Shown here piece after piece: positions 22,848-28,272 of a stretch of DNA of 64,000 bases. Each line of letters opens with the position of its first letter. The first letter of the stretch is position 1. The translations under genes and the position numbers were made by a program. The notes beneath the pieces were generated by a model. It made no database searches, was not told the DNA's origin, and worked only from the letters and a program-made list of their open reading frames with translations. Source of the stretch: Tardiphaga robiniae (lineage in GTDB: Bacteria; Pseudomonadota; Alphaproteobacteria; Rhizobiales; Xanthobacteraceae); NCBI RefSeq assembly GCF_013359755.1, contig NZ_JABMCJ010000076.1, positions 62,001-126,000 on the forward strand. Direction: 5' to 3'.

Positions 22848-23429
22848 ATGACATCCTATGACATTCGCAAGACCCAGATTTCCGTCGAGACGGTCTGGCA
22901 CGAACGTGGGCCGCGTCTCTCGCAGCCGCTCCATGTCGGCACGGCGCTTGCGATTATCCGCAATCCTTTTGCTGGTCGATACGAGCCGGACCTGATGGCC
23001 TTCCAGGCCGAACTACGCGAACTTGGACGCAAACTTGCGGCCGAACTCGTTCAGGCGCTTGGCGGCAAGGACAAGATCGAAGCCTACGGCAAGGGAATGA
23101 TCGTGGGCGACGACGGCGAGCTTGAGCACGCGGCGGTGTGGCATGAAGCCGGCGGCTGGGCGATGCGCGAGATTCTCGGCCAGCCCAAGGCCATCGTGCC
23201 GGCTGCGAAGACCGTCGGCGGAATCGGCACACGACTGATGGTGCCGCTGGGCCATATCGAAGCGGCCTATGTCCGCAGTCATTTCAACACTGCTGAAATG
23301 ACCATCTGGGATGGCCCGCGCCGCGACGAGATCGCCTTCGGCCTGGTGATGGCCACCGGCGGAAGACCGCATGCACGTATTGGCGGGCTGGCCGCGTCCG
23401 ATATCTCGGTGCATGACGGACAGCGATAG
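22848..23429 (+). CDS. Amino acid synthesis (AA_synth/DUF1185) family protein
   Basis: 193 residues. The segments GTALAIIRNPFAGRYEPDL, YGKGMIVGDDGELEHAAVWHEAGGWAMRE and MTIWDGPRRDEIAFGLVMATGGRPHARIGG are hallmarks of this poorly characterised family, often found beside catabolic genes. The family name is historical, and no reaction is established. It follows the FAH gene by 50 bases in the same direction and probably shares its transcript. Confidence 0.8.
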   Translation: MTSYDIRKTQISVETVWHERGPRLSQPLHVGTALAIIRNPFAGRYEPDLMAFQAELRELGRKLAAELVQALGGKDKIEAYGKGMIVGDDGELEHAAVWHEAGGWAMREILGQPKAIVPAAKTVGGIGTRLMVPLGHIEAAYVRSHFNTAEMTIWDGPRRDEIAFGLVMATGGRPHARIGGLAASDISVHDGQR

Positions 23430-23480
23430 CTACCGCAAACAGCGCCTGCACACGACGCAGGCGCTTCGCAAAGAGTTTCG

Positions 23481-24221
23481 CTACTTCGGCGTCTCCATCG
23501 CCCTGGCGACGGTGATCTTCAGCATCTCGACGAACAGCTTCTCTGCGTCGGTGCCATCGGGTAAGCGGCGCAGGATGTCAGTGAGGCGGCCATCGAGGGT
23601 CAGCATGGTGAAACCATGCACCAGCGACCATGTCCGCGCGATCTGTGCGGCCTGCTCGATGGTCAGCGCATCGGTCGCGACATTGCCCGGATGATGTGCA
23701 CCGACCACGCTGGCAAGACCGGCGAAGGATGCATTGGCTGCCTCGCGCAGATTCGGCCGCGTCATGTCGAGCCGCTCGGTACGAAACATCAGTTGATACA
23801 TGCCGGGCTGCGCACGTGCATAAGCGAGATAGGCCTTGGCGCGGGCGAGCGCGCTTTCGAGCGGCGTCGTGCCGCTCGCACCAGCTGCAGTCATTGTGGC
23901 GTTGAAGTTGCGAAAGCCGATAGCGGCGAGTTCGCTGACGAGGCCGGTGAGATCGCCGAAGTGATGCGTCGGAGCCGCATGCGAGACGCCGGCTTCGCGG
24001 GCGACGGCGCGCAGCGTCAGGCCAGATAGTCCATCGCGCTCCAGCACGATTTCCGCGGCTTTCAGCAGCGCGCCGTGCAAGTCCCCGTGATGATAGGGAG
24101 ATTCGGCGCCGGCGGTTTTTTTAGCCGCGCCCTTGGCTTGCGAAATTCCTGCGACCTTCTTGCGGCGGTCTTGCGGAACGGCGCGCGGTTTCGCGGTCTT
24201 GGCCTGCTTCGTCATGGTCAT
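23481..24221 (-). CDS. TetR-family regulator of the carotenoid-oxygenase block
   Basis: About 246 residues from the ATG at 24221; longer starts (24236) would run into an operator. A lysine-rich N-terminal arm (about 40 residues) precedes the helix-turn-helix (YHHGDLHGALLKAAEIVL, then LTLRAVAREAGVSHAAPTHHF). The C-terminal ligand domain is of the TetR_C_33/WHG type. It is divergent from the oxygenase gene. A palindrome at 24235-24253 touches its own start, so it probably represses itself, and four more copies lie before the neighbouring genes. Confidence 0.9.
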   Translation of the reverse strand: MTMTKQAKTAKPRAVPQDRRKKVAGISQAKGAAKKTAGAESPYHHGDLHGALLKAAEIVLERDGLSGLTLRAVAREAGVSHAAPTHHFGDLTGLVSELAAIGFRNFNATMTAAGASGTTPLESALARAKAYLAYARAQPGMYQLMFRTERLDMTRPNLREAANASFAGLASVVGAHHPGNVATDALTIEQAAQIARTWSLVHGFTMLTLDGRLTDILRRLPDGTDAEKLFVEMLKITVARAMETPK

Positions 24222-24234
24222 GTTATAGGTCGTC

Positions 24235-24253
24235 ATTTTTACACTGTAAAGAT
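24235..24253. promoter_or_regulatory. TetR operator A1
   Basis: ATTTTTACACTGTAAAGAT fits the shared 8-3-8 palindrome ATYTTGAC-N3-GTAAAGAT. It lies just before the TetR gene and just before the -35 (TTGAC, 24259-24263) of the oxygenase promoter. Confidence 0.7.
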
Positions 24254-24258
24254 TTTGC

Positions 24259-24286
24259 TTGACGGGCCGACCGCTCACATCTAGCA
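24259..24286 (+). promoter_or_regulatory. Promoter of the carotenoid oxygenase gene
   Basis: TTGAC (24259-24263) and CTAGCA (24281-24286) are 17 bases apart, a good housekeeping-sigma layout. The same boxes with the same spacing occur at 25793-25820. The promoter sits between operators A1 and A2. Confidence 0.6.
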
Positions 24287-24305
24287 ATCTAGACAACGTA
24301 AAGAT
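24287..24305. promoter_or_regulatory. TetR operator A2
   Basis: ATCTAGACAACGTAAAGAT follows the -10 box and covers the likely transcription start, a position expected for repression. Its centre is 52 bases from that of A1. Confidence 0.7.
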
Positions 24306-24324
24306 AACAGCATGGGAGACAACG

Positions 24325-25728
24325 ATGGCGCTGCTGGACCCGATCGAGGCTGCTCATGACAATCTTGCGCCGATCCCGATGGAGTGTGACGCGCCATTCC
24401 TGACAGTCGTCGGCGAATTGCCACGTGAGCTCAACGGCACGCTCTACCGCAACGGCCCCAATCCTCAATTCGAAACCAAAGGCTCGCACTGGTTTGTCGG
24501 TGACGGCATGCTGCATGCCTTTCACATAGAGAACGGCCGCGCGAGCTATCGCAATCGCTGGATCCACACGCCGAAATTTCTCGCTGAGCACGATGCCGGC
24601 CGCGCGCTCTATCGCGGCTTCGGCCAGAAAATGCCGGATGCCCCCGCTTCACTTGGCAATGACTCAGGCGCGGCCAATACCAACATCGTCTTTCATGCCG
24701 GCCGCCTGCTCGCGCTGGAGGAAGGCCATGCGCCAACCGAGATCGAACCGGGCACGCTGAAGACGCTCGGCTATCAGAACTATAGCGGGCGCATTGGCGG
24801 GCCGTTCACCGCGCATCCGAAGATCGATCCCGTTACCGGAGAGATGACCTTCTTCGGCTACAATGCCCGGGGAATCTTTAGTCCGACGATCTCGTTCGGC
24901 GCAATCGATTCATCGGGCATCGTCACGCGCTTCGAACGTTTCGATGCGCCCTATGCCAGCATGGTGCATGACTTCATCGTCACCGAGAACCACCTGCTGT
25001 TTCCGATCCTGCCCATCACCGGCAGCATGGATCGCGCCCGGTCTGGTCGTTCGCCCTATGCGTGGGAGCCGGACAAGGGCTCTTATGTCGGCGTGATGAA
25101 GCGCGGCGGCAGTGCGGATGATATCAAGTGGTTTCGCGCCGAAGCCTGCTACGTCTTCCATGTGATGAATGCGTGGGAGGAAGGCGACCGCATCATCGCC
25201 GACGTCATGCAGTCCGAGGAAGCGCCGCTGTTCACGCATCCCGACGGCTCGCCGACAGATCCTGCGAAATCCAATGCCCGGCTGTGTCGCTGGACCTTCG
25301 ATCTGGCAGCCAATACTGATCGCTTCACCCGCACCTATCTCGACGACGTCACCGGCGAATTCCCGCGCATCGACGAACGGCGTTCGGGCCTTGTGAGTAC
25401 GCAAGGCTGGTACGCCTGCGATAATCCGGCGCCGGGAGCCAGCAGCGCATTTTCAGGCCTCGTGCATGTTGGACGCGGAGGCGCGCGGCTGGCGCAATAC
25501 ATGCTGCCGCTCGGCGACAGCATTTCGGAGCCGGTCTTCGTCGCGCGCGGCAAGAATGCAGCCGAAGGCGATGGTTGGCTGCTTGCGGTGGTGTGGCGCG
25601 CCCGGCAGAACCGCAGCGATCTGGCAGTGTTCAATGCCACCGATGTCGCCGCGGGGCCGATCGCTCTCGTCCAGCTCGGTCACCGGGTACCAGCAGGCTT
25701 TCACGGCAACTGGGTTAATTCCTTCTAA
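24325..25728 (+). CDS. Carotenoid-cleavage-type oxygenase (RPE65/lignostilbene dioxygenase family)
   Basis: 467 residues from the ATG at 24325. The four iron-binding histidines of the seven-bladed propeller are visible: His164 (FTAHPKI), His215 (MVHDF), His279 (VFHVMNAW) and His460 (AGFHGNW). The opening PFLTVVGELPRELNGTLYRNGPNPQF is a family hallmark. It cleaves a C=C bond in carotenoids, apocarotenoids or stilbenes; the substrate cannot be told. No signal peptide. Two TetR-type operators flank its promoter, and YciB-like membrane genes with the same operators follow. Confidence 0.95.
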   Translation: MALLDPIEAAHDNLAPIPMECDAPFLTVVGELPRELNGTLYRNGPNPQFETKGSHWFVGDGMLHAFHIENGRASYRNRWIHTPKFLAEHDAGRALYRGFGQKMPDAPASLGNDSGAANTNIVFHAGRLLALEEGHAPTEIEPGTLKTLGYQNYSGRIGGPFTAHPKIDPVTGEMTFFGYNARGIFSPTISFGAIDSSGIVTRFERFDAPYASMVHDFIVTENHLLFPILPITGSMDRARSGRSPYAWEPDKGSYVGVMKRGGSADDIKWFRAEACYVFHVMNAWEEGDRIIADVMQSEEAPLFTHPDGSPTDPAKSNARLCRWTFDLAANTDRFTRTYLDDVTGEFPRIDERRSGLVSTQGWYACDNPAPGASSAFSGLVHVGRGGARLAQYMLPLGDSISEPVFVARGKNAAEGDGWLLAVVWRARQNRSDLAVFNATDVAAGPIALVQLGHRVPAGFHGNWVNSF

Positions 25729-25768
25729 ACCATTGATCCAATGACAGTTAAAGATCTCGCCTCACATA

Positions 25769-25787
25769 ATTTTGACAGTGTAAAGAT
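25769..25787. promoter_or_regulatory. TetR operator B1
   Basis: ATTTTGACAGTGTAAAGAT, directly before a TTGAC -35 box, is the counterpart of A1. A weaker half-site (GACAGTTAAAGAT) lies at 25743-25755. Confidence 0.7.
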
Positions 25788-25792
25788 TTTTG

Positions 25793-25820
25793 TTGACGAG
25801 CCCGCGGGCAAGGCCTAGAA
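25793..25820 (+). promoter_or_regulatory. Promoter of the decayed membrane-protein unit
   Basis: TTGAC (25793-25797) and CTAGAA (25815-25820) with 17-base spacing copy the layout of the oxygenase promoter. Confidence 0.55.
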
Positions 25821-25823
25821 GAA

Positions 25824-25842
25824 ATCTTGACAACGTAAAGAT
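25824..25842. promoter_or_regulatory. TetR operator B2
   Basis: ATCTTGACAACGTAAAGAT lies just after the -10 box. Its centre is 55 bases from B1. It is the closest copy to the consensus. Confidence 0.7.
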
Positions 25843-25860
25843 GGAGCGACAGGAAAACAG

Positions 25861-25905
25861 CGTGGCCTCCTTTCTCATGATCGGCGCGGCTGCCATCGCC
25901 TCCTG
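25861..25905 (+). pseudogene. Remnant of the 26370-type membrane protein gene
   Basis: GTG start, then MASFLMIGAAAIAS and stop. The first codons match those of the intact gene at 26370 (MASFLIIAPFGAFAI), and the upstream sequence from operator to Shine-Dalgarno (GGAAA before the start) also matches. It appears to be what is left of a duplicate of that gene after a deletion of most of its body. It may still act as a short leader peptide. Confidence 0.55.
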
Positions 25906-25955
25906 AAGCACAACGACAAAGTACTCATTCGACAACAAGCGCGCGGAACCACGCC

Positions 25956-26279
25956 ATGATCAACGTCCTCGCCAAGCTGGCCATCGGCTTCCTTTCCACC
26001 ATCGCCTTTTTCACGACCTTTGCGGTCGCAGGAGACGTGCTGATCGCGACTGCCGTCGCCATCGCAAGCGCTGCTACGCAGTTCGTTCTCGCACGAACCG
26101 CATATCGCAGGCCGGACATGATGACCCGGACAGCAAGCTGGGGCAGCCTGGCCCTCGTGCTGGTTGTGACCGGGACCACGCTCGTCGGTATCGAACCATC
26201 CGGCGCGGCCGCCTCGGCCTCTCATGACGTTTTCACGCCGGTCGGCAATGTCTGCCCGCTCTCACAACAAGACATATGA
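25956..26279 (+). CDS. Truncated YciB/IspZ-like membrane protein (duplicate copy)
   Basis: 107 residues. The first 75 align with the start of the protein at 27002 (VLAKLAIGFLSTIAFF versus VFAKLGQDFFSTIVFL; GDVLIATAVAIA versus GDVLLATCVAIA), and the helix-turn-helix of membrane segments is kept. The remaining half of the family domain is missing and replaced by about 25 unrelated residues. It is either a decayed duplicate or a short derivative still controlled by operators B1 and B2. Confidence 0.6.
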   Translation: MINVLAKLAIGFLSTIAFFTTFAVAGDVLIATAVAIASAATQFVLARTAYRRPDMMTRTASWGSLALVLVVTGTTLVGIEPSGAAASASHDVFTPVGNVCPLSQQDI

Positions 26280-26331
26280 TCGCAGGATAATGAGCAGCGA
26301 CACGACGACCTCGTAGGCGAGCCTGCAACTC

Positions 26332-26350
26332 ATCTTCACAACGTCAAGAT
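26332..26350. promoter_or_regulatory. TetR operator C
   Basis: ATCTTCACAACGTCAAGAT keeps the 8-3-8 symmetry (ATCTT.AC / GT.AAGAT) and lies 20 bases before the ATG of the membrane gene at 26370. No partner site or clear TTGAC box was seen before it. Confidence 0.6.
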
Positions 26351-26369
26351 AGCCCGAACTGGAAACGCC

Positions 26370-26945
26370 ATGGCTTCCTTTCTCATCATCGCCCCGTTCG
26401 GTGCTTTCGCCATCCTGATGATGGTGTCATCGGTCGCGATCAGCCTCTTCGCCGCAGCCGCGCTGTCGCTCGGCATCGTGGTCTGGGACGTGATCCGCGG
26501 CGGCTCGCTGAAGATGCTTGCAGCAGGCTCGGTGCTGATTTTCAGCGCGCTCGGCTGCTACATCACGCTGGTCGACGGCAATTGGAGCGCGGTGGCCGTC
26601 CGCCTCGCCGTCGATGTCGGCCTGCTCTCAATCGTGCTGCTGTCGCTGGCGATCCGCCTGCCCTTCACGCTGCAATATGCCCGCGAGATGGTCGACGCCG
26701 AAACCTCGAAGCTGCCCGGCTTCATGAAGGCGAACTACATCCTCACCTGGGCCTGGGCCGGCGCATTTGTGCTGATGCTGGTGGCGGACATGCTGATCAT
26801 CTACATGCCCTCGCTGCCACTGTGGATCGGCTTTGCGGTGGCCTTTGCCGCGCGCAACTCTGCCGTTGCCTTCACCAAATGGTACCCACAGTATCGTCGC
26901 GCGAAATATGGTGCAGTGAAACCGGCTGAACCGCTGAAGCCCTGA
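26370..26945 (+). CDS. Polytopic membrane protein, hypothetical
   Basis: 191 residues with five to six hydrophobic helices (for example 5-40, 47-67, 77-97 and 124-160). The C-terminal part RNSAVAFTKWYPQYRRAKYGA is amphipathic and basic. Family not recognised. It is first in a two-gene unit with the YciB-like gene 56 bases downstream and has operator C before it. A decayed copy of its start lies at 25861. Probably works with the oxygenase or its product at the membrane. Confidence 0.75.
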   Translation: MASFLIIAPFGAFAILMMVSSVAISLFAAAALSLGIVVWDVIRGGSLKMLAAGSVLIFSALGCYITLVDGNWSAVAVRLAVDVGLLSIVLLSLAIRLPFTLQYAREMVDAETSKLPGFMKANYILTWAWAGAFVLMLVADMLIIYMPSLPLWIGFAVAFAARNSAVAFTKWYPQYRRAKYGAVKPAEPLKP

Positions 26946-27001
26946 TCCATTTCGCCTGCAAATCGACGCCTGACCATCTCGACTGCATTGGGAGCACTGC
27001 G

Positions 27002-27574
27002 ATGAAGGACGTATTCGCTAAACTTGGCCAGGATTTCTTCTCCACCATCGTCTTCCTGGTGCTCTACCTCGTCACCGGTGACGTCCTGCTGGCGACCTGC
27101 GTGGCGATTGCGGGTGCCGTCGCACAGTTTGTCTATGCCCGCATCAAGGGCTCGAGGCTTGATGTAATGACCTATGCCAGTCTCGCGCTGGTGGTGGTCC
27201 TCGGCGGCGCGACGTTGCTGACCAAGGATCCGCGCTTCGTGCTGGCCAAGCCCAGCATCGGGCATTTCGCCATCGGTGCGATCATGCTGCGCAAGGGCTG
27301 GATGCTGCGCTACCTGCCACCTATCGTCAGCGAGACGATCCCTGAATATGTGACCGCTGCGGGCTATGCCTGGGCCGCGCTGATGTTCGCGCTTGGCGCC
27401 GGTGTCATCGCTGTGGCCATGACCGGCGATATGAAGCTGTGGGCGTTCTATGTGTCGGTCGTAGCCATTGGCGCCAAGGTGCTGGCCTTCGCGATCCAGT
27501 ATGTCGTGTTCCGGGTGATCGTCGGCCGCAAGCTTCGCGCAGCTGCAGCGACGGCGCCGCAGATGGGCGCCTAG
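27002..27574 (+). CDS. YciB/IspZ-like inner-membrane protein
   Basis: 190 residues with about five membrane helices. The arrangement DFFSTIVFLVLYLVTGDVLLATCVAIA, VMTYASLALVVVLGGATLLTKDPRFVLAKPSIGH and LRKGWMLRYLPPIV fits the YciB/IspZ (septation protein A) family by eye, in which the TxDxxFIKxKPTI-like segment is conserved. The genuine housekeeping ispZ is usually elsewhere near ftsY, so this is likely an accessory paralogue. Last gene of the TetR-linked block; its stop overlaps that of the convergent Ig-like gene. Confidence 0.8.
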   Translation: MKDVFAKLGQDFFSTIVFLVLYLVTGDVLLATCVAIAGAVAQFVYARIKGSRLDVMTYASLALVVVLGGATLLTKDPRFVLAKPSIGHFAIGAIMLRKGWMLRYLPPIVSETIPEYVTAAGYAWAALMFALGAGVIAVAMTGDMKLWAFYVSVVAIGAKVLAFAIQYVVFRVIVGRKLRAAAATAPQMGA

Positions 27575-28272
27575 TCGCTCGTACGCAACAGCGAGCTTCG
27601 CAAACGGGCTACTCCGACATCCACCGTCAGCGGCGGCGATGCCGCGGGCGCATGAACCGTGTCGCCCTCATATTCAGCCGTGATCCAGCGCGTGCCATCC
27701 GCCAGCGCCGAGGTGGTGAACGACGCCGTGCCGGCGCGATCGAGGCCGACATGGGTCGCAAGAACCTGCTCGCCATCGCGAAAGGTGACGGCACCTTTCG
27801 GAATGCCAACACCGCCGGCAATCGCGGCCGTCAACGTGACCACCGCTCCAGACGGACAAGGATTCTCGGACGACGACAGCGCCACCGCCGGCATGACGCG
27901 TATGGTTTCCTCCACCACCGCGGATTGGCTCGGCTGCACCACGACGGGCAGATAGTTGGACGTCCCCATATAATCCGCACGGAAGCGATGCGGACCCGGC
28001 GGCAGTCGCTGGACCACCAGCGACGGATGGGCCACATCGACCCAGCCAAGCACCATGAGCGTCGTCTCATCGACAAAGCGGACGATGCCGCCCGGGACGC
28101 CCCCACCGCGTTCACTGGTCACGGACGCCGTCAGTGTCGTGCGGCCGGCTACATCGATGGATGATGCCAGCGTGGTCCGGGTCAGTTCGGAGTGAATGAT
28201 GGATTGGGCGCGGGCCGCGGCCGGACTTGCGAGCATAACTGCAGTGACGACGACCAGATGAAAATTGTTCAC
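27571..28272 (-). CDS. Secreted Ig-like repeat protein
   Basis: 233 residues. A signal peptide ends near AAARAQ. Two bacterial Ig-like (Big_3/Big_5-type) domains follow, about 35-125 and 130-222, each with the pattern TLTASV...GGIVRFVD...LVVQRLPPGPHRFRADYMGTSNY and TLTAAIAG...GAVTFRDGEQVL...WITAEYEGD. Such domains serve as beta-sandwich spacers in surface or periplasmic proteins. Stop codons of this and the preceding gene share CTAG. Confidence 0.8.
   Translation of the reverse strand: MNNFHLVVVTAVMLASPAAARAQSIIHSELTRTTLASSIDVAGRTTLTASVTSERGGGVPGGIVRFVDETTLMVLGWVDVAHPSLVVQRLPPGPHRFRADYMGTSNYLPVVVQPSQSAVVEETIRVMPAVALSSSENPCPSGAVVTLTAAIAGGVGIPKGAVTFRDGEQVLATHVGLDRAGTASFTTSALADGTRWITAEYEGDTVHAPAASPPLTVDVGVARLRSSLLRTSD

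Follow-up and report, generated by a model that had tools for sequence, protein, structure and literature searches.

A TetR-family regulator and paired palindromic operators that probably form an autoregulated regulon of a carotenoid-oxygenase-family gene and orphan membrane proteins in Tardiphaga robiniae

We have analyzed a 64,000-nucleotide (nt) stretch of the Tardiphaga robiniae genome (assembly GCF_013359755.1, contig NZ_JABMCJ010000076.1, positions 62,001 to 126,000; hereafter the window) in which five 19-base-pair (bp) palindromes accompany a TetR-family regulator gene (tetR), a gene of the carotenoid-cleavage-oxygenase (CCO) family and genes for small membrane proteins resembling VC0807 and YciB. 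These elements most likely constitute an autoregulated TetR regulon in which TetR binds the palindromes directly, and very probably does so as an autorepressor. Such a regulon had been proposed by a sequence-only reading of this DNA, and it is now strongly supported by three results: co-occurrence found in a search blind to TetR, a conserved bracketing of promoters by operator pairs, and covariation between the TetR recognition helix and the operator. From these computed sites, their architecture, conservation, co-occurrence and covariation, we infer binding and its repressive sign.

All five palindromes of the sequence-only reading are present where it placed them. Its pattern, ATYTTGAC-N3-GTAAAGAT, is exact in two copies (25769 and 25824) and inexact in three, with one mismatch at 24235, one at 24287 and, at 26332, one on the minus strand or two on the plus. 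The symmetric ATCTTKAC-N3-GTMAAGAT is a better description of the operator. The reported centre distances of 52 and 55, and the spacing TTGAC-17-CTAG at both promoters, proved correct. At up to three mismatches on both strands the window contains 10 matches, compared with a mean of 0.28 and a maximum of 2 in 100 dinucleotide shuffles. In the 6.32-Mb genome of the strain itself, the places within one mismatch of the pattern are exactly the five sites of the locus, so the palindrome is not scattered over random positions of that genome. Two weaker sites there, C3:56578 and C94:43067, have two mismatches on the listed strand and did not reach two in a symmetric recount; the former lies within an open reading frame resembling a substrate-binding protein and the latter approximately 27 bp upstream of such a frame.

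The operators are arranged as pairs around promoters. Across 110 distinct loci (35 from the family and 75 named), 174 operator pairs were found with palindromes 51-56 bp apart; TTGAC begins exactly 5 nt past operator 1 in 167 of them, and [CT]TA follows 17 nt past TTGAC in 148. Five named loci duplicate family loci and are excluded from this recount; with repeats the figures are 184 pairs, 177 with TTGAC and 158 with [CT]TA, and in the count with repeated loci the gap between paired palindromes is 32-37 bp. In the opposite direction, TTTACA lies 17 nt from the TATAAC of tetR, which ends 6 nt upstream of the ATG, and the tetR mRNA is therefore probably leaderless. A TATAAT-like box at a distance of 16-18 nt occurs for 50 of 109 operators and in 16% of control windows, a tally that is a rough lower bound with some of the 109 probably being second-pair operators; an ATG stands 5-7 nt beyond the box in 45 of the 50. 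A generic sigma-70 consensus scan of 23400-27700 gave one site against 1.3 expected, and the conserved promoters, with their CTAR-like -10 elements, were not detected by it. That one site coincides with ATGACAGTTAAAGAT, a half-site-like sequence directly 3' of the oxygenase stop codon (window 25741-25770).

A TetR search of 149 genomes of the family identified 34 with E < 1e-40, the threshold being placed at a gap in the list. The strict search for operator pairs, performed without reference to TetR, returned 29 of the 149 genomes in 38 rows (G016 and G059 have two rows each, which are one place read on both strands), and its reversed-pattern control returned none in every genome listed. All 29 genomes with a pair fall within the 34 with a close TetR, compared with 0 of the 115 others (Fisher p = 4e-26, kinship ignored). 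Thus palindrome and TetR subfamily do co-occur in related genomes, which the sequence-only reading had put forward as a check. Of the 35 family loci, 31 have the pair at tetR (it is missing from L053, L068, L069 and L070, of which L068 and L070 are truncated by contig ends), as do 79 of the 80 named loci, the best 80 of 408 by TetR similarity (missing from L196).

Operator sequence also follows the regulator. Residue 84 in the TetR recognition helix (SHAAPxHHF) is His in 135 of 141 distinct loci and Asn in six. Position 3 of the half-site is C in 381 of 502 half-sites of His-84 TetRs (T in 62, A in 44, G in 15) and in 0 of 22 half-sites of Asn-84 TetRs (A in 14, G in 8), as scanned with positions 3 and 17 left free and the best two sites taken per locus, so that loci without good sites contribute little. 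A seventh Asn-84 TetR, from the betaproteobacterium Caballeronia sp. SBC2, has one site at one mismatch, carrying A and G. In a tree of 70 TetRs, two changes are required to account for Asn-84: the first in a supported clade whose five members come from four families, the second in the long-branch L212.

The arrangement is kept in many Bradyrhizobium relatives. A CCO gene is present at 21 of 35 family loci and 73 of 80 named loci, the VC0807-like gene at 23 and 70, and the YciB-like gene at 24 and 75, respectively. Where both CCO and VC0807-like genes are present, two distinct operator pairs occur at 7 of 13 family loci and 57 of 63 named loci; five of the six family loci failing this count are from Tardiphaga, in which the second pair precedes a short YciB-like gene and is too distant from the VC0807-like gene. 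Strong VC0807-like matches were found in 26 of the 149 family genomes, 25 of which also have the TetR. The core partners of TetR are a VC0807-like protein and a divergent YciB-like paralogue, both of them small membrane proteins. Where target genes lie apart, operator pairs remain with them. In G138, the CCO and VC0807-like genes are approximately 4 kb apart with unrelated genes between them, and the latter retains its operator pair.

A strong VC0807-like match (166.6 bits) lies at G053:C14:36870, in a genome without a close TetR. At L121 (Tardiphaga RYN_476), the operator pair is followed by a partial CCO match of approximately 0.7 kb, and the VC0807-like and YciB-like genes keep their own pair; the oxygenase there seems to be decaying. 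At L061 (6660-8578) and L064 (7258-9180), the module has a second, paralogous CCO (38% identity) a few kb away, and a second TetR (28-31%) is encoded divergently to it.

Among the places outside the locus listed by the scan of the strain's genome, a single one is within one mismatch of the symmetric consensus, G000:C86:31706 (ATCTTTACAATGGAAAGAT on the gene's strand, one mismatch), compared with 0.08 expected under a first-order model of the window. This sixth site is 46 bp upstream of a DUF2306 membrane gene (PF10067, 40.6 bits; L110:1556-1960, on contig C86), which is likely an unlinked target of the regulon. In G095, moreover, a VC0807-like gene with its own operator pair lies approximately 14 kb from tetR. 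That the regulon is self-contained, as it had been called, is thus not supported. The DUF2306 protein of the strain shares 57% and 56% identity with the DUF2306 proteins adjoining the Asn-84 TetRs of L117/L067 and of L228. At L117 (10008-11006), an Ohr-family peroxiredoxin (TIGR03561, 159.6 bits) is encoded between the TetR and DUF2306 genes. The DUF2306-like neighbour at L210 is below the cut-off and gave no match with the strain's DUF2306 protein.

More distant members of the TetR subfamily (35-44% identity) were collected at 31 loci (L072-L076 and L208-L233). An ABA4-like match is present in 21 of these, 20 of them with a 284-residue partner, and the remaining 10 have neither. PF14108 was confirmed for two ABA4-like neighbours; the 284-residue membrane partner had no Pfam or NCBIfam match in the one copy scanned. 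Distant TetRs face ABA4-like genes, mostly with this partner, at L072-L075, L213-L219, L221-L225, L229-L233 and L238, the last from Microvirga ossetica being a named, annotated case. Their sites follow the same 8-3-8 design but carry more mismatches, and paired ones are often 31-34 bp apart. Plasmid records were covered for eight of 10 matches (without H4 and H10), three of the eight having no annotation in the stretch. Among the plasmid loci, the Microvirga ABA4-like case fits this theme and Caballeronia sp. SBC2 fits the pairing of helix and operator. The other records are neutral or speak against: at one mismatch, no site was found for the Rhizobium TetR (L237), Caballeronia M1242 (L240) or Kozakia (L241) and one was found for C. 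insecticola (L239), and the Rhizobium and Shinella DUF2306 plasmid stretches contain neither a TetR of this family nor a site.

It is conceivable, if rather unlikely, that one TetR subfamily with an 8-3-8 operator and a one-residue switch governs all of these orphan membrane proteins (VC0807/YciB-like, ABA4-like with the 284-residue partner, and DUF2306) together with the oxygenase, and that these proteins, as enzymes or carriers in the membrane, share in one response to hydrophobic alkenes or to what their oxidation yields. ABA4 is a plant factor in neoxanthin synthesis, and one sister locus encodes the Ohr organic-hydroperoxide enzyme; both would fit such a response. So would PraC, a fungal DUF2306 member that is needed for an epoxidation according to the excerpted text of PMC12895699.

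The oxygenase is an RPE65-family protein whose four His motifs are kept in all 21 locus copies, although in some of these one residue next to the His differs. No crtI_fam match at E<=1e-60 was found in the strain's genome (top nine candidates scored per genome); by the same measure, CrtI-type desaturases occur in 29 of the 149 family genomes. A CrtI match is lacking in 21 of the 22 genomes with a CCO at the TetR locus versus eight of the 12 TetR genomes without one (Fisher p = 0.04), and CrtI is present in eight of 14 genomes that have an RPE65 protein without this TetR. Since 21 of the 22 show no CrtI match, a carotenoid made by the cell itself is probably not the substrate.

We propose that TetR dimers bind the paired palindromes. 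With operator 1 ending 5 nt before the -35 element and operator 2 covering the start point, bound TetR would close the enclosed promoter. In the divergent region, operator 1 also holds the -35 element of the probably leaderless tetR promoter, and one complex could silence both directions. The second pair would control the membrane genes, and the unlinked operator probably adds the DUF2306 membrane gene. We further infer a ligand, a substrate and functions for the membrane proteins. TetR would be released by a small, probably hydrophobic environmental ligand, tentatively an alkene, a polyene, or an aldehyde or oxidation product derived from either; the membrane proteins would then move or modify this ligand, and the oxygenase would cleave it in most lineages.

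A number of observations weigh against this regulon as we read it. Five of the 34 TetR genomes have no strict pair (G021, G043, G075, G089 and G144); among the pair-less cases, the sites of L067 are of the Asn-84 type, those of L053 are degenerate, L056 and L071 are near misses, and G043 (L069) has no site. The named loci oversample Bradyrhizobium and are not an independent sample, 121 of the 502 His-84 half-sites have no C at position 3, and the His/Asn switch, judged from the tree, is one or two independent events. The sixth site is a single, unpaired operator. In Foldseek searches, no PDB structure matched the YciB-like or the VC0807-like model (mean predicted local distance difference test scores 82 and 79) at E<=0.001. 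That the palindromes instead serve another widespread regulator, or are a repeated promoter element to which TetR is a bystander, has scarcely any probability in our judgement: the TTGAC of the half-site does resemble a -35 element, and the TetR loci L069 and L053 have no site and only poor sites, respectively, but none of the 115 family genomes lacking a close TetR has the strict pair, and the operator sequence tracks the recognition helix. An activating TetR, or one that both activates and represses from operator 1, is very unlikely. Its position just upstream of -35, at a rigid 5-nt offset, would suit an activator, but operator 2 lies over the expected start at both window promoters and operator 1 over the -35 element of tetR, and TetR-family proteins are mostly repressors.

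Two other alternatives accept the regulator and concern its purpose. The sequence-only reading had TetR dedicated to the oxygenase and sensing its substrate or product, with the membrane proteins as accessories; this is not established, and we consider it doubtful. A CCO gene follows the tetR operator pair in most loci, and a sister Asn-84 TetR (L208) also faces one. However, the locus is without a CCO in 12 of the 34 TetR genomes, and in 10 of these the tetR pair directly precedes the VC0807-like gene (L042, L043, L052, L059-L064 and L066; the other two are G021 and G043). For distant TetRs of the subfamily the facing gene is ABA4-like or DUF2306, and no CCO was found in the stretch examined. 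It is unlikely that the oxygenase is a lignostilbene dioxygenase and that the regulon serves lignin-stilbene catabolism. LsdA is a lignostilbene dioxygenase with residues numbered Tyr101 and Lys134. The best PDB matches of the oxygenase include lignostilbene dioxygenases (6ojr, so named; 6xm6 is named only dioxygenase), but it scores 413 bits against the cut-off of 800 for the lignostilbene-alpha,beta-dioxygenase equivalog NF053778 and 345.3 against 650 for NF053780. As we read an alignment with LsdA, Glu132 takes the place of the pocket Lys, and the pocket Glu motif is found in 20 of the 21 locus copies, L056 being unmatched by the pattern. In the excerpted text of PMC6097328, the corresponding role is described for PbLSD, whose Lys135 is placed by a docking model in contact with the hydroxyl of the substrate.

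The fifth palindrome and the membrane genes of the window are best understood through a tandem duplication. The sequence-only reading counted two membrane-protein units; one is complete, and the other is a duplication remnant that keeps a short YciB-like gene. A 76-nt direct repeat (25813-25888 and 26321-26396, 72% identical) spans the operator at 25824 and the start of the VC0807-like gene, and the operator at 26332 is therefore a copy of that at 25824. The site is present, as had been read, and as a member of the regulon it looks like a decaying duplicate: its equivalents have two mismatches in L039 and L041 and three in L040 of other Tardiphaga, and none was found at <=3 mismatches in L038. 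That the short YciB-like gene is mere debris was considered and dropped: among five Tardiphaga genomes, each of the 10 pairwise comparisons gave a ratio of nonsynonymous to synonymous substitution rates within 0.07-0.22, and similar short genes occur at four loci of another genus (between the VC0807-like and YciB-like genes in L060, L061 and L064, and after the former in L059). The gene is, from these substitution rates, under purifying selection.

The features of the locus are listed in Table 1. The regulator has a palindromic operator in its own promoter region, in keeping with its TetR membership, and its closest named relatives among the matches listed are from T. robiniae Vaf-07, Tardiphaga sp. 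P9-11 and Bradyrhizobium sp. NFR13 (95-97% identity). NF041646 matches eight of 12 VC0807-like proteins at E<=0.001; the copy in the window is below its cut-off of 65 bits. The full-length YciB-like protein is, on its family scores, a divergent paralogue of the housekeeping YciB, which is encoded on another contig of the same genome (C7:518866, 198.6 bits).

Table 1. Features of the TetR locus, in window coordinates.
Feature	Position	Strand	Description
TetR-family repressor gene	23481..24215	-	244 residues; TetR_N 33.1 bits (cut-off 24) and TetR_C_33 52.4 bits, both above Pfam cut-off
tetR promoter, -10 TATAAC	24222..24227	-	-35 TTTACA at 24245-24250, within operator 1; similar in many related loci
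Operator 1, tetR/CCO divergent region	24235..24253		pattern match
Oxygenase promoter	24259..24286	+	TTGACG 24259-24264, CTAGCA 24281-24286, 17 nt after TTGAC; geometry conserved
Operator 2, tetR/CCO region	24287..24305		abuts -10; covers expected oxygenase transcript start
CCO-family protein gene (RPE65 family)	24325..25728	+	467 residues; PF03055 441.9 bits
Operator 1, second pair	25769..25787		exact match
Second promoter	25793..25820	+	TTGACG 25793-25798, CTAGAA 25815-25820
Operator 2, second pair	25824..25842		exact match
Remnant start of duplicated VC0807-like gene	25862..25906	+	14 codons, then stop; first codon CTA in G026 (L038)
Short YciB/IspA-like membrane gene	25956..26279	+	107 residues; PF04279 23.8 bits, below cut-off 28.7
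Fifth operator, unpaired	26332..26350		apparent decaying duplicate of 25824-25842
VC0807-like integral membrane protein gene	26370..26945	+	191 residues; NF041646 28.8 bits
YciB/IspA-like integral membrane protein gene	27002..27574	+	190 residues; PF04279 56.6 bits, above cut-off

This regulon is short and testable, and it belongs to a carotenoid-oxygenase-family enzyme in bacteria that mostly show no CrtI match and are therefore probably not carotenoid makers. It connects the oxygenase with membrane proteins of no assigned function. DNA-bound TetR proteins can be released in vitro, and the regulator could thus be used as a ligand screen that would point to the substrate of the oxygenase and membrane proteins; the pairing of His84 or Asn84 with operator position 3 is a ready-made test of specificity. 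What makes the system interesting is the orphan status of its membrane partners, the DUF2306 gene as a likely unlinked target and the question of the ligand. No description of the regulon was found among the open-licence literature matches listed, including the excerpted texts of PMC5017801, PMC6097328, PMC12895699 and PMC12997858. The TetR blr7984 of B. diazoefficiens was considered and dropped; in the excerpt of PMC5017801, the neighbours of this regulator with strongly raised levels include no such partners but a glutathione transferase, a dehydrogenase and a hypothetical protein.

The local regulon is new in its contents and classical in its TetR design. Divergent autorepressor circuits of the TetR/tetA, QacR and AcrR type are well known, and the present locus resembles them in having two divergent genes, operators of palindromic form that lie over both promoters, and a local regulon. 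Unlike in those circuits, two operators here bracket each promoter at 51-56 bp, and the targets are an oxygenase and orphan membrane proteins, with no efflux pump among them and an unlinked target likely. The oxygenase resembles the lignostilbene dioxygenases (known for short as LsdA, LSD4 and NOV1) in its RPE65/CCO family and four His motifs, and differs from them in its scores below the equivalog cut-offs and in a Glu where LsdA has its pocket Lys. The YciB-like protein resembles the YciB/IspZ septation protein in its PF04279 match; unlike the canonical protein, of which the genome has a copy elsewhere, it scores 48.5 bits against the 165.2 of TIGR00997. Further parallels are the TetR/ABA4-like loci of other families, which share a homologous TetR, 8-3-8 operators and divergent membrane genes, and which differ in their targets (ABA4-like PF14108 proteins and the 284-residue orphan, with no CCO match in the stretches) and in a two-site spacing that is often 31-34 bp.

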